Shown in pieces: positions 18,619 to 22,228 of a stretch of 50,022 bases of DNA; positions within the stretch are counted from its first letter, which is position 1; every line of letters begins with the position of its first letter. A program made the position numbers and the translations under genes. The stretch is from a gamma proteobacterium endosymbiont of Lamellibrachia anaximandri. GTDB lineage: Bacteria > Pseudomonadota > Gammaproteobacteria > Chromatiales > Chromatiaceae. The DNA is taken from positions 1 through 50,022 of the forward strand of contig JAESPE010000012.1 of the NCBI GenBank assembly GCA_016756835.1, given 5' to 3'. Below the pieces are notes generated by a model that saw only the letters and a list, made by a program, of their open reading frames with translations, searched no databases and was not told the origin of the DNA.

Positions 18619-18635
18619 TCGTGACAGTTCCGTGA
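18619..18635 (+). promoter_or_regulatory. Putative OmpR-type direct-repeat operator, site 1
   Basis: TCGTGA-CAGTT-CCGTGA: two hexamers spaced at an 11-bp period, preceded by TTATG. The same arrangement, with identical 5-bp spacer length and the same TTATG context, is upstream of msrB at 21344-21360. It lies 97 bases before the methionine-rich gene. OmpR-family regulators bind such tandem repeats, and the response regulator encoded between the two sites is the obvious candidate. Confidence 0.6.
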
Positions 18636-18731
18636 TTGGCAGCGGAACCCCAGCTGCTTGAATAGCTCTCCAACAGCACCGAAAAAACGGCACTGTTCCA
18701 ATGAAAACAACCCCCCACAGGAGAGATTCCG

Positions 18732-18989
18732 ATGAAAACCCGATTTTCCAGTACACTTAAAGGCCTGACTTTCGTTGCACTGGCTGCGGTCATGACTGCG
18801 AGCAGCGCCGCACCCATGATGGATGATGACATGTCGATGCAGAAAGACGGCATGATGAAGATGGCCGACGACAACGCCATGCAGAAGGATACGAAGATGT
18901 CCGATGGGATGCACGGAAAGATGGAACACTCGATGGAGCCGATGAAAAAAATGAACGATGGCAAAATGAAGGAGTCGATGGATAAGTGA
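18732..18989 (+). CDS. Methionine-rich exported peptide (MXKDX-repeat-like)
   Basis: Eighty-five residues. The N-terminus (MKTRFSSTLKGLTFVALAAV, cleavage near ASSAA) is a Sec signal. The mature part of about 59 residues has 16 methionines (about 27%) mixed with Asp, Lys, Glu and His and no cysteine, in loose repeats such as MQKDG, MQKDT and MKKMNDG, matching the MXKDX pentapeptide pattern. A GGAG ribosome-binding site is at 18719-18722. Such proteins can act as sacrificial oxidant scavengers (as MrpX of Azospira does) or bind Cu(I)/Ag(I). Its neighbours, a two-component system and an exported MsrB with the same upstream operator, favour oxidant defence. A REP pair lies just after it. Confidence 0.82.
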   Translation: MKTRFSSTLKGLTFVALAAVMTASSAAPMMDDDMSMQKDGMMKMADDNAMQKDTKMSDGMHGKMEHSMEPMKKMNDGKMKESMDK

Positions 18990-19006
18990 TGCCCTGCAGG
19001 GTGAAT

Positions 19007-19097
19007 CGTAGGCCGGTTCAAGCGTAGCGGAACCGGCAACCCCTGGTATTTCAACTAGCCTTGAACGCCCGATCCGCTACGCTTGATCGGGCCTACG
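19007..19097. repeat. REP-like palindrome pair (family 2, copy B)
   Basis: The left unit begins CGTAGGCCGGTTCAAGCGTA and the right, inverted unit ends GCTTGATCGGGCCTACG; the outer ends pair exactly. It lies between the methionine-rich gene and the response regulator, where it may attenuate read-through. In both units the central triplet is GTA/TAC, while copy C has ACA/TGT in both units. Confidence 0.88.
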
Positions 19098-19127
19098 ACT
19101 TTGACAAATTAAAACAGAGTCTTTTCC

Positions 19128-19841
19128 ATGGCACGTAAAGTCCTGATCATCGAAGACGATCCCGATATCGCCCGGCTGGTGCAGCTGCACCTGCGGGATA
19201 TCGACTGCGAAGCCGACATCATCAATGACGGGGCGGAGGGTCTGCGCCACTTCCAAAAGGGCGACTACGAACTGCTGGTACTGGACCTGATGCTGCCGGG
19301 GATGGACGGCATGTCGGTCTGCCGAGAACTGCGCCGTGAAACAGACTATGTGCCGATCCTGATGCTGACCGCCAAAAGCTCGGAACTCGACCGGGTGGTG
19401 GGATTGGAGGTGGGTGCGGACGACTATCTGACCAAGCCCTTCAGCATCCCGGAGCTTCTGGCCCGCATCAAAGCCCTGTTCCGCCGCGTGGACGCACTTG
19501 GCGGCAGCGCAAAACAACCTGCGACCGACAAGGCTATCCACTACGAAAAACTCACCATCGATCCGGCGAAACATCAAGTCAGAATAGCAGACAGGGAGGT
19601 GGAACTGACCGCCAGAGAGTTCGACCTGCTACTCCATTTCGCCCGCCATCCGGGACGGGTCTTCAGCCGGGTGCAACTGCTCGACTCAGTCTGGGGATAC
19701 AACCATGAGGGCTACGAACACACCGTCAACACCCACATCAACCGCCTGCGGACCAAGATCGAGAGCGATCCCGCCAATCCCCATTTCATACTGACGGTCT
19801 GGGGCGTGGGTTATAAGTTTGCCGATACCCGTGGAATCTGA
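19128..19841 (+). CDS. OmpR-family response regulator
   Basis: DNA-binding regulator of 237 residues. The receiver domain has the acidic pair EDD at 9-11, phosphoacceptor Asp53 (LVLDLMLPGMDG), Thr in MLTAKS and Lys in DDYLTKPF. The C-terminal winged helix is clear: VELTAREFDLLLHFARHPGRVFSR, the recognition region YEHTVNTHINRLRTKIE and the wing VWGVGYKF. It is followed six bases later by its sensor kinase. Two identical 11-bp-period direct repeats (18619 and 21344) lie before the genes on either side of the pair, so those genes are the likely targets. No such site is seen in front of this gene, so the pair may be transcribed from its own weak promoter or by read-through. Confidence 0.93.
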   Translation: MARKVLIIEDDPDIARLVQLHLRDIDCEADIINDGAEGLRHFQKGDYELLVLDLMLPGMDGMSVCRELRRETDYVPILMLTAKSSELDRVVGLEVGADDYLTKPFSIPELLARIKALFRRVDALGGSAKQPATDKAIHYEKLTIDPAKHQVRIADREVELTAREFDLLLHFARHPGRVFSRVQLLDSVWGYNHEGYEHTVNTHINRLRTKIESDPANPHFILTVWGVGYKFADTRGI

Positions 19842-19847
19842 CGAAAT

Positions 19848-21323
19848 ATGTTAAAAACCCTCTACGCCAAACTCGCCACCGGCCTGGTGTTGCTGCTCGC
19901 CGCCATCGGCCTGCTCTACGCCCTGATCAGCACCACCGCCACCCGCCACTATGTGCAGGAGGTGACCCAGCAGTTCAATCGCGATTTGGCGCGCAACCTG
20001 GTGGCCGATCGCAATCTGGTGGAAGAGGGACGCATCAACAACAGCGCTCTGCAAAAAACCTTTCAGCAATATATGGTGATCAACCCCAGTATCGAGATCT
20101 ACCTGCTCGACCCGGAAGGCCGCATCCTCTCCTACTCTGCGGATCCTGGAAAGGTGAAACGCAAGCGGGTCTCACTGCAACCCATCGAGAATTTTCTGCA
20201 CGGCAGAGGGGGATTCCCCCTGCTCGGCGACGACCCGCGAAGTCACGATCGCCGCAAGGCTTTCTCGGTCACGCCCGTACCCTCCGCCGAGCAGCCGGAG
20301 GGCTACCTCTATGTGGTACTGCGGGGCGAAGAGTTTGACTCGGTGGATGATCTGGTGCGTGAAAGTTACTTCCTGCGCCTCAGTGGCTGGGCCATGACAG
20401 CCAGTCTCATCATCGGCCTGCTGGCGGGATTGGCGGTTTTCCGTCTGTTGACCCGCAGACTGCATCGTCTCTCCAACCTGATGGACAGATTCAGGACTGA
20501 CAACTTCAGTCACTATCAGCCCTATACCGAAGCACCGGGTGGAGCGGCTGACGAGGTTGACCGGCTGGGTGAAACCTTCGACCGTATGGCGTTGCAGATT
20601 CAGGCCCAGATCGACCAGCTGAAGGAGAAGGATCATCTGCGCCGCCAGCTGGTGGCCCAGGTCTCCCACGACCTGCGCACCCCGCTCTCCTCGATACAGG
20701 GCTATCTCGAGTCCCTGACCCTCAAGGCTGACTCACTCGACCCGGTGGCGCGTGACGAATACATCGCCATCGCCCTGCGTCAGAGCCGACGTCTCTCGGC
20801 CCAGGTAGAGGAGCTCTTTGAACTGGCCAGCCTGGATGCCCGTGAGACTCTGCCGAAATGTGAGCCTTTTCCTCTGGCGGAGCTGTTGCAGGATGTGGTG
20901 CAAAAGTACCGGCTGCGAGCCGAACAGCAGGAGATCCTGCTCTCCATGGATCCGCCGGAAAGCTCACCCTTCGTCTTTGCCGATATTGCGCTTACCGAGC
21001 GCGGGCTGGAGAATCTCATCGAAAATGCCTTTCGCCACACTCCTGCCGACGGCAGTATCACACTTGCCCTGGGTATCGAAGAGACCAAGGTTTCCGCCGT
21101 GGTATCCGATAGCGGCAGCGGTATCAGCGAAGCGGACCTGCCCCACCTGTTCGAGCCCTTCTTTCAATCCCGGAAAAATGCCGGCTCAAGTGGTCATGCC
21201 GGATTGGGACTGGCCATCGCCCGCCGCATCGCGGAGTTGCAGGGAGGTGAGATCACCGTCGAGAGCCGCCTCGGCAAAGGCAGCCACTTCGCCCTCTGGC
21301 TGCCGCGCACCGAAACCCGTTGA
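19848..21323 (+). CDS. HAMP-containing sensor histidine kinase
   Basis: Membrane sensor of 491 residues, the partner of the response regulator six bases upstream. Transmembrane segments lie at about 8-28 and 180-200, enclosing a periplasmic sensor of about 150 residues that has no cysteines and only three methionines (VVLRGEEFDSVDDLVRESYF ends it). HAMP spans about 200-250. The dimerisation/phosphoacceptor helix holds VSHDLRTPLS (His274), and the ATPase has N-box NLIENAFRHT, G1 DSGSGI, F-box FEPFF and G2 GLGLAIARRI. The signal is unknown; given the neighbours, an oxidant or metal in the envelope is inferred. Confidence 0.93.
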   Translation: MLKTLYAKLATGLVLLLAAIGLLYALISTTATRHYVQEVTQQFNRDLARNLVADRNLVEEGRINNSALQKTFQQYMVINPSIEIYLLDPEGRILSYSADPGKVKRKRVSLQPIENFLHGRGGFPLLGDDPRSHDRRKAFSVTPVPSAEQPEGYLYVVLRGEEFDSVDDLVRESYFLRLSGWAMTASLIIGLLAGLAVFRLLTRRLHRLSNLMDRFRTDNFSHYQPYTEAPGGAADEVDRLGETFDRMALQIQAQIDQLKEKDHLRRQLVAQVSHDLRTPLSSIQGYLESLTLKADSLDPVARDEYIAIALRQSRRLSAQVEELFELASLDARETLPKCEPFPLAELLQDVVQKYRLRAEQQEILLSMDPPESSPFVFADIALTERGLENLIENAFRHTPADGSITLALGIEETKVSAVVSDSGSGISEADLPHLFEPFFQSRKNAGSSGHAGLGLAIARRIAELQGGEITVESRLGKGSHFALWLPRTETR

Positions 21324-21343
21324 TTCATCCTGATGTTATGAAT

Positions 21344-21360
21344 TCGTGATATCTCCGTGA
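21344..21360 (+). promoter_or_regulatory. Putative OmpR-type direct-repeat operator, site 2
   Basis: TCGTGA-TATCT-CCGTGA with TTATG just upstream, matching the site at 18619-18635 in both hexamers and spacing while the 5-base spacer differs. It is 133 bases before the exported msrB gene and 21 bases after the sensor-kinase stop. Confidence 0.6.
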
Positions 21361-21492
21361 AACGTCTGTTATTCAGCAGATCCATACTTTTCTCATGCGC
21401 TATTTCCACACAAACCGCCATGCAGTTATCCGCATCAACCCACTGCAGAAAGGCTGTCACATCAGCTATATTCCAGAACACGGAGACAAACC

Positions 21493-22083
21493 ATGAAAAT
21501 TAACCGCACCCTTAAAATAGCCGCCGCTCTGGGTATCAGTGGAGCGATACTTGGCTTGATGGCGCAGGCCGCAAACCAGACTACGGAGAGCGAATCGATG
21601 AAACAGCCGATCGAACAGGCCGCCGCGCCCAGCCAATGGAGCCGTCCAAGCAACGAGCAGATCAAAGCGCGCCTCACCCCGGAACAGTTCAAGGTGACAC
21701 AGAGGAACGGCACCGAGAGTCCCTTCAGAAACGCCTACTGGGACAACCACGAAGACGGCATTTACGTCGACATCGTCTCCGGTGAGCCTCTGTTCAGTTC
21801 ACGCACCAAGTTCGACTCCGGCACCGGCTGGCCGAGCTTCAGCGCGCCTATCAAAGGCAACAATGTGGCAGAGAAAGAAGACTGGGCCTGGGGCATGAGC
21901 CGCACCGAAGTCCGCTCCAAACACGGCGACTCCCACCTCGGCCACGTCTTCGACGACGGTCCCGGCCCCAACGGTCAGCGCTACTGCATCAACTCCGCCT
22001 CACTGCGCTTCATCCCCGTTGCGAAACTGGAGGCGGAAGGTTACGGCGAGTACATAGCGCTCTTTGCAGATAGGGCAGAATAA
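21493..22083 (+). CDS. msrB: Exported peptide-methionine (R)-S-oxide reductase, single-cysteine form
   Basis: Reduces the R epimer of methionine sulfoxide in proteins. Of 196 residues, the first 27 or so ([26 protein letters not shown]) form a signal peptide or anchor, so it acts in the periplasm. The MsrB domain (about 50-190) shows [34 protein letters not shown], the [26 protein letters not shown] block with the catalytic Cys in RYC, and a C-terminal extension. The two CxxC zinc pairs of many MsrBs are absent, and the catalytic cysteine is the only cysteine in the protein, so there is no resolving cysteine; recycling must use an external reductant. A Sec MsrB next to a methionine-rich exported peptide is a notable pairing. 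A REP pair follows the gene. Confidence 0.93.
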
Positions 22084-22098
22084 CGATCTCCCGAAAAG

Positions 22099-22165
22099 CG
22101 TAGGCCGGTTCAAGCACAGCGGAACCGGCAACCCGCCCGATCCGCTGTGCTTGATCGGGCCTACG
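22099..22165. repeat. REP-like palindrome pair (family 2, copy C)
   Basis: The left unit begins CGTAGGCCGGTTCAAGCACA and the inverted right unit ends GTGCTTGATCGGGCCTACG. Compared with copy B, the central triplet GTA has become ACA in the left unit and TAC has become TGT in the right, a matched change that keeps the two units alike. It closes the methionine-repair cluster and separates it from the ABC operon. Confidence 0.88.
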
Positions 22166-22228
22166 CCGTAATTTAGCGAATAAATCCAAGCCGGTGCATC
22201 GACTGAATTTATCCTGTATCTTTCGGCC

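Follow-up and report, generated by a model that had tools for sequence, protein, structure and literature searches.

A probable envelope defence by methionine redox, under two-component control and with a Met-rich exported peptide and MsrB, in a Lamellibrachia symbiont

We analysed a stretch of 50,022 nucleotides from the draft genome (4.14 Mb) of a gammaproteobacterial endosymbiont of Lamellibrachia anaximandri (contig JAESPE010000012.1, positions 1 to 50,022; hereafter the window), in which four genes lie in line on the plus strand. The first encodes an exported peptide of 85 amino acids rich in methionine (Met), a proposed methionine oxidant sink (18732..18989). An OmpR/PhoB-type response regulator of 237 amino acids follows (19128..19841; Response_reg and Trans_reg_C domains, presumed phospho-Asp 53), and then a sensor histidine kinase of 491 amino acids (19848..21323; HisKA, HATPase_c and HAMP domains, presumed phospho-His 274), whose HAMP match of 24 bits was just under the Pfam cut-off of 25. 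The fourth gene encodes an exported methionine-R-sulfoxide reductase, MsrB, of 196 amino acids with a single cysteine (21493..22083; SelR, 167 bits). Signal peptides were assessed by eye and with a crude hydrophobicity script in place of a dedicated predictor. The gene set claimed in the original prediction, a note made earlier from this DNA alone, was recovered in full: a cysteine-free Met-rich exported peptide, a regulator, a kinase and an exported one-cysteine MsrB.

The peptide gene and msrB are preceded by the same plus-strand sequence, TCGTGA-N5-CCGTGA. Ahead of the peptide gene it is an exact match at 18619..18635, with half-sites 11 bp apart; ahead of msrB, where the operator spans 21334..21360, the exact copy (21344-21360) follows a TGTTA (21334-21338), which gives three half-sites in 11-bp steps. 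The exact operator ends 97 positions ahead of the peptide start codon and 133 ahead of that of msrB. Direct repeats of 11 bp are the customary layout for OmpR/PhoB regulators. Three exact copies occur across the genome, two of them in the window; the third (locus L139) lies within an ORF (open reading frame) named by eye as aspartokinase-like, and we take it as chance. A weak putative −10 element suggested by position-specific composition, TTGAAT, may belong to the peptide promoter (18658..18663, plus strand), and another weak candidate, CATACT, has the same spacing in the msrB promoter (21383..21388, plus strand). The original prediction had treated the genes as one circuit without mention of an operator; the identical sites ahead of both genes support shared control, and the regulator would be expected to bind and activate there.

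We scanned one genome per species (84,980 species) with an alignment of the kinase N-terminus and used the best 80 of 285 relatives, a sample of 80 kinase-family loci (1.31 Mb). We assigned gene types from BLAST results and motifs, and Pfam checks on samples agreed (Spond_N in 14/15, a fragment at L084 having failed; PF00174 in 3/3; DUF1223 in 3/3). To be counted, an upstream slot needed at least 500 bp of sequence ahead of the regulator (n=75) and a downstream slot 1200 bp or more beyond the kinase (n=75); 70 loci qualified for both. The nearest named kinases are those of vestimentiferan symbionts (Escarpia, Lamellibrachia), with N-termini 95-99% identical; the relatives include Sedimenticola, Marinobacter, Tamilnaduibacter, Saccharospirillum and Thiodiazotropha, and also metagenome-assembled genomes (MAGs) titled Alphaproteobacteria and one titled Mariprofundaceae. 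A search of 74 genomes, one of them the symbiont's, found the kinase in 25 (E≤1e-60).

The upstream slot held a Met-rich exported peptide in 33/75 loci, a spondin-type protein in 18/75 and both in 2. A methionine sulfoxide reductase (Msr) occupied the downstream slot in 43/75 loci (41 of MsrA/B type and 3 MsrP, one locus having both). The original prediction had named a lack of co-occurrence elsewhere as grounds for giving it up; we found the three gene types together in many genera, with peptide and Msr both present in 24 of the 70 loci. In a set thinned at 90% kinase identity (65 loci) the corresponding counts were 25/62 for the peptide, 32/61 for Msr and 18/58 for both. Equally Met-rich ORFs in the 1.31 Mb stood just upstream of the regulator 33 times and elsewhere twice, neither of those two being peptide-like. 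By a crude rule, 42/45 Msr proteins had a signal-like N-terminus. Peptide, sensor pair and MsrAB occur together in cultured Marinobacter species; in Sedimenticola there are peptide and pair, and an adjacent Msr was not found in its cultured strains. Peptide-bearing loci fell on both sides of the midpoint root of the kinase tree, in which support was uneven, suggesting that the pairing is old or recurrent.

The operator is also found in the relatives. Near the cassettes of the 80 loci, YGTGA-N6-YGTGA had 102 coding-strand and 2 opposite-strand occurrences (351 kb), against 10 and 1 by strand in the outer flanks (959 kb, 2.7 times the near DNA). Spacers of 4, 5, 7 and 8 bp gave 1, 0, 2 and 1 coding-strand matches near the cassettes (0-3 per strand), and the reversed repeat pattern gave none there. 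Among 60 arrays from loci made non-redundant at 90%, 19 had three exact half-site copies; across these arrays, the last pair is preceded at 11 bp by a degenerate half-site, and 38-43 bp on from the start of the pair comes a −10-like A/T preference, where the two window promoters read TTGAAT and CATACT. The repeat sites precede peptide, Msr, spondin, DUF1223 and regulator genes, and the core CGTGA-N6-CGTGA precedes the peptide in L057-L060 as well.

With an approximate signal-peptide cut, the mature window peptide has about 60 residues, 16 of them Met and 2 His, with neither cysteine nor aromatics. Neither NCBIfam nor Pfam gave a match at E≤1, and a known named family was ruled out on that ground. 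The mature parts of 34 peptides averaged 25% Met, 19% Lys, 16% Asp and 8% Glu; cysteine occurred in 0/34 and aromatics in 5/34. The pentapeptide MXKDX repeat model TIGR02953 matched 9/34 peptides at E≤0.001, the window peptide not among them, and of the eight shown with scores that of L086 passed the cut-off of 41 at 41.3. The proposal that this family differs from the kind of MrpX, a Met-rich peptide of Azospira suillum, and BcrX of Brucella melitensis is thereby qualified: nine of the peptides match MXKDX, although the window copy has no TIGR02953 match. In the window and four congeners, five sequences in all, mature Met was conserved at 16/16 positions versus 26/44 other mature positions (Fisher p = 0.0013, relatedness not corrected).

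Mean column identity was 19% for the peptides and 71% for the kinase sensor domain. This bears on the idea that the peptide is a feedback partner whose reduced form keeps the sensor off, whose oxidation frees the sensor and which Msr resets. The peptide gene does adjoin the regulator in 33/75 loci, stands without an adjacent Msr in 8/70 and lies under the common operator, all of which would suit such a role; a sequence so variable beside so constant a sensor is, however, ill-suited to a specific interface, and the kinase occurs without the peptide at many loci. We regard feedback as unlikely.

MsrB of the window scored 206 bits against TIGR00357 (cut-off 113) and is the sole PF01641 match genome-wide. 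Its one cysteine sits in RYCIN, and the other cysteine of the best solved match (KFDSQCGWPSF) aligns to a threonine; together with the SelR domain, this agrees with the one-cysteine class to which it had been assigned. The second-best NCBIfam model was the bifunctional MsrA/MsrB PRK14018. No match to PF00174 (MsrP type) was found across this genome. Two MsrA are encoded, one with a signal-like N-terminus, and the repeat operator had no match near either gene in the stretch fetched.

In relatives the Msr slot is filled by MsrB, MsrAB, MsrB with DUF1223, or MsrP(Q). Three loci (L077, L078 and L080) carry the peptide and sensor pair followed by MsrP, confirmed by PF00174, with MsrQ in L077 and L078. 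Loci of the Thiodiazotropha type combine an MsrB having at least 5 cysteines with a DUF1223 protein (CSSCPP motif), a candidate periplasmic thiol donor for Msr. DUF1223, a relative of PDB 2axo, stood beside Msr in 15/75 loci, among them L088 (11530-12309), L090, L102 and L120. As a reductant partner in the symbiont it was dropped, the family not having been found in this genome.

At four loci a Met-rich tract is part of the Msr genes themselves. The MsrA-MsrB proteins of L088 and L093 each have a Met-rich repeat after the signal peptide and ahead of MsrA. In L111 and L126 the tract comes after MsrA, in the former at the start of an MsrB frame overlapping that of MsrA and in the latter just ahead of the frame end. 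Met per 40 residues numbers 12-13 in the four tract-bearing Msr proteins and does not exceed 5 in any of the remaining 41 (45 in all); a separate peptide is absent from all four loci. These form two sister pairs and were therefore counted as two events. We consider such tracts genetic evidence that a Met-rich tract and a reductase work together. The overlapping frames around the tract in L111 (11601-12856, a Saccharospirillum MAG) are either a real break or an assembly error.

To our knowledge, the spondin-type exported proteins of the upstream slot are not known as redox proteins. Spond_N proteins, sometimes in tandem, often stand behind the repeat upstream of the regulator (L117 7592-8308, L104, L116-L118); the symbiont genome has one copy, on contig C235, and the DNA retrieved around it contained no match to the repeat. 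Their presence would fit a general envelope-stress regulon in which peptide, spondin proteins and Msr are separate outputs and the peptide is a disordered chaperone or spacer, and so would the fact that Met is, besides alanine, almost the only hydrophobic residue of the mature peptides. Against it stand the conservation specific to Met among congeners, the range of Msr arrangements with which the peptide is paired, and the Met tracts inside Msr genes; we hold it to be very unlikely.

The periplasmic domain of the kinase spans approximately residues 30-185 and has a GDDPRSHD motif. Cysteine was absent from, and Met76 invariant in, 81/81 sensor-domain sequences, and both hold for the four distant homologues aligned. 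Since Met76 stands two residues ahead of one of the two patterns used in the relative search, part of its conservation could come from hit selection. In an AlphaFold2 model (mean predicted local distance difference test score 73) the elements follow a PAS-like order. The solved structures that matched it best were PAS-type sensors (PAS-like domains and CusS/CzcS/WalK sensors), none at E≤0.001, and for this reason no ligand was inferred; a sequence search against solved structures gave a single weak match (E 0.073).

The CusS sensor, second in that ranking at a non-significant E of 0.011, brings up a copper/silver cassette, the alternative in which a CusSR-like sensor would control the peptide as a periplasmic buffer for metal, like SilE/PcoE, and metal-binding Met would be repaired by MsrB. 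The layout is similar where silE lies beside silRS and pcoE beside pcoRS. Some peptides have several His (7 each in L077 and L098, 9 in L133); 9/34 have none, however, and 13/34 have one. The regulator and kinase scored far below the cut-offs of the heavy-metal (CusSR/SilRS/CopRS) models TIGR01387 (186.4 vs 279.2 bits) and TIGR01386 (139 vs 292.55 bits), and judged by eye none of the recurrent ORF clusters within 9 kb of the kinase in both directions resembled a copper or silver transporter. In E. coli, CusSR is reported to induce msrPQ, but the CusR/HprR box given in the same source, CATTACAAAATTGTAATG, differs from the operator described here (PMC9302797). The Met tracts within Msr genes also count against this alternative, and a copper/silver function seems improbable to us.

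The sequence shows the four genes, their shared operator, the conservation across classes, the specific conservation of Met, the exchange of reductases, the Met tracts in Msr genes and the homology to the OrhKR type described below. Taken together, these suggest that the cassette defends the envelope through methionine redox under two-component control and forms an MsrB-type branch of a family resembling OrhKR. We give this reading a probability of about 0.78. Oxidants such as hypohalous acids, chlorite or peroxides entering the periplasm would activate the kinase through its cysteine-free sensor domain, perhaps via the invariant Met76. The phosphorylated regulator would then bind the tandem YGTGA half-sites in their 11-bp steps and switch on the peptide gene and msrB. 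Once exported, the Met-Lys-Asp peptide may be oxidised instead of other proteins, by analogy with MrpX, and the exported MsrB, helped by the separately encoded and exported-looking MsrA, would reduce the methionine sulfoxides. Such reduction would make the sink reusable and repair damaged envelope proteins. The repair enzyme appears to be the exchangeable part, its place being taken in relatives by MsrAB, MsrB plus DUF1223, or MsrP(Q).

Several findings weigh against this reading. The linkage is not universal: 8 of the 70 loci had a peptide without adjacent Msr, 18 had Msr and no separate peptide (the Msr gene having a Met tract in 4 of these) and 20 had neither, 12 of these with a spondin-type gene and 8 with none of these genes. 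Taken alone, the peptide-Msr association is modest (Fisher p = 0.027, relatedness not corrected). The exact repeat lay within 350 bp of 22/33 peptide genes and 22/43 Msr genes. The frames of L111 and L126 encode no intact MsrAB. In a sixth congener (G005) the peptide is absent from this place and there is no repeat match; a transposase-domain ORF (PF05598; L004 3792-4472) abuts the regulator there instead. MsrB acts on the R form of methionine sulfoxide only, and DUF1223 was not found in this genome. Among five distant homologues examined from plasmid records, Msr lay beside the pair in two and not in three. Finally, a loose form of the operator was not enriched genome-wide, with 18 sites vs 19 when the pattern was reversed; a large genome-wide regulon is therefore unsupported, and the actual one is probably small and local. 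Of the 16 loose sites outside the cassette, 15 overlap ORFs longer than 150 amino acids, some of which are probably spurious, and only that on C254 (L185) is clear.

Examples such as MrpX, BcrX and OrhKR may belong to a wider rule: a homologous sensor pair with an identifiable operator, a sink of Met alone and an Msr that can be exchanged. We tentatively extend this to the possibility that in several proteobacterial classes periplasmic methionine redox is governed by one old sensor family with the YGTGA direct repeat, which would sense methionine oxidation directly through the invariant Met and combine any Met sink with any Msr, up to a continuously regenerated sink tethered to MsrAB; we hold this broad form to be rather less likely than not. 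The operator offers a handle for finding further regulon members. Vestimentiferans live at oxic-sulfidic interfaces, and for their symbionts the cassette would be a specific envelope oxidant defence to be sought in transcriptomes; the sink idea is testable in cultured Marinobacter, which has peptide, pair and MsrAB.

Two further observations concern the surroundings. Two similar inverted-repeat copies, GTAGGCCGGTTCAAGC...GCTTGATCGGGCCTAC, were read by eye in the window at 19008-19097, between the peptide and regulator genes, and at 22100-22167, downstream of msrB; they resemble repetitive extragenic palindromic (REP) elements and perhaps mark transcript ends. The kinase on a contig deposited as Candidatus Endoriftia persephone (L122, AASF01001883.1) is only 59% identical to that of the window and groups near the Thiodiazotropha-type loci; this is either a second copy or a foreign contig.

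Periplasmic repair of the MsrA/MsrB type is carried out by PilB in Neisseria. A periplasmic MsrAB is likewise described for Haemophilus influenzae (PMC9404787); the window's MsrB, in contrast, stands alone, has one cysteine and is probably co-controlled with a Met-rich peptide. In Azospira suillum and perchlorate islands, MrpX-YedYZ(MsrPQ)-SigF/NrsF cycles a Met-rich peptide against hypochlorite, and MsrA and MsrB are predicted to be exported in two perchlorate islands (PMC4623255). As described there, control is by an extracytoplasmic function (ECF) sigma/anti-sigma pair and the main reductase is MsrPQ, in contrast to the response regulator, kinase and MsrB found here. The BcrXQP-BcrS/AbcS system of Brucella melitensis, inducible by hypochlorous acid, shares with the window a Met-rich peptide, of the MXKDX kind, and an Msr, but has an ECF16 sigma, an NrsF-type anti-sigma and MsrPQ according to the same account (PMC8315932).

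Two-component control of periplasmic methionine repair is known from HprSR-MsrPQ of E. coli, which differs in its operator and in using MsrPQ, and for which the portions of the two sources drawn on here name no Met-rich peptide (PMC10151825, PMC9302797). The window regulator scored 157 bits against the HprR equivalog NF008567 (cut-off 353). Chlorite dismutase neighbourhoods have been linked with Msr systems, the portion of that source at hand containing nothing on this pair (PMC9751292), and the words 'methionine', 'MsrB' and 'two-component' do not occur in the Riftia symbiont proteome paper PMC7787665. Our literature search, confined to an open-licence library to the exclusion of subscription journals and preprints, found no description of the MsrA/B-type branch, the direct-repeat operator or sink-reductase fusions.

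The closest known system is OrhK/OrhR with C3566-C3568 of uropathogenic E. coli, which is reported to control a periplasmic Msr and a small Met-rich peptide, to respond to peroxide, to raise peroxide resistance and to bind its target promoter in electrophoretic mobility shift assays, the repeats proposed being TCACA-N15-TGTGA (PMC8550376). The concept of a two-component system over a Met-rich peptide and Msr is already known from OrhKR, and the original claim of an undescribed variant holds, within that open-licence literature, for the MsrA/B-type branch and not for this combination, as published in PMC8550376.

Distant homologues of the pair occur in 95 plasmid records, from which the five mentioned above were taken. 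One is Klebsiella pneumoniae pKP22-2 (L190), where the pair is divergent from genes for a cytochrome b, an MsrP-like protein and an MXKDX-like peptide with two cysteines (score 38.8 vs a cut-off of 41). From this gene order, and because its kinase His278 and regulator Asp55 are the positions published for OrhK/OrhR, we take L190 as an OrhKR-type locus; the comparison was made with this proxy and not with OrhKR itself. The window regulator is 54.5% identical to that of L190 over 231 amino acids and the kinase 36.8% over 468, with 33% in the N-terminal half. In Burkholderia multivorans (L187, 1-2955), msrB-dipZ-msrA is divergent from the homologous pair, with the DipZ-type gene between the two Msr genes. 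The 11-bp direct repeat was not found in L187 or in the intergenic region of L190; only single TGTGA and CGTGA half-sites facing apart were seen. No Msr was annotated beside the pair in Klebsiella aerogenes, Candidatus Methylocalor or B. pyrrocinia. The K. aerogenes pair (L188, 3690-5877) lies beside rumB and artJ, with no Met-rich ORF found there and the regulator annotated in three pieces; in Candidatus Methylocalor (L189, 3396-3411), the same 11-bp direct repeat faces an exported protein divergent from the regulator-kinase pair.

OrhKR shares with the window a homologous pair, a periplasmic Msr with a Met-rich peptide, and the TGTGA half-site. Its reductase is MsrPQ-like, and divergent from the pair in L190, whereas the symbiont genome has MsrB and no PF00174 match. 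The half-sites proposed for OrhKR are inverted (TCACA-N15-TGTGA), whereas those of the window are direct, at 11 bp.

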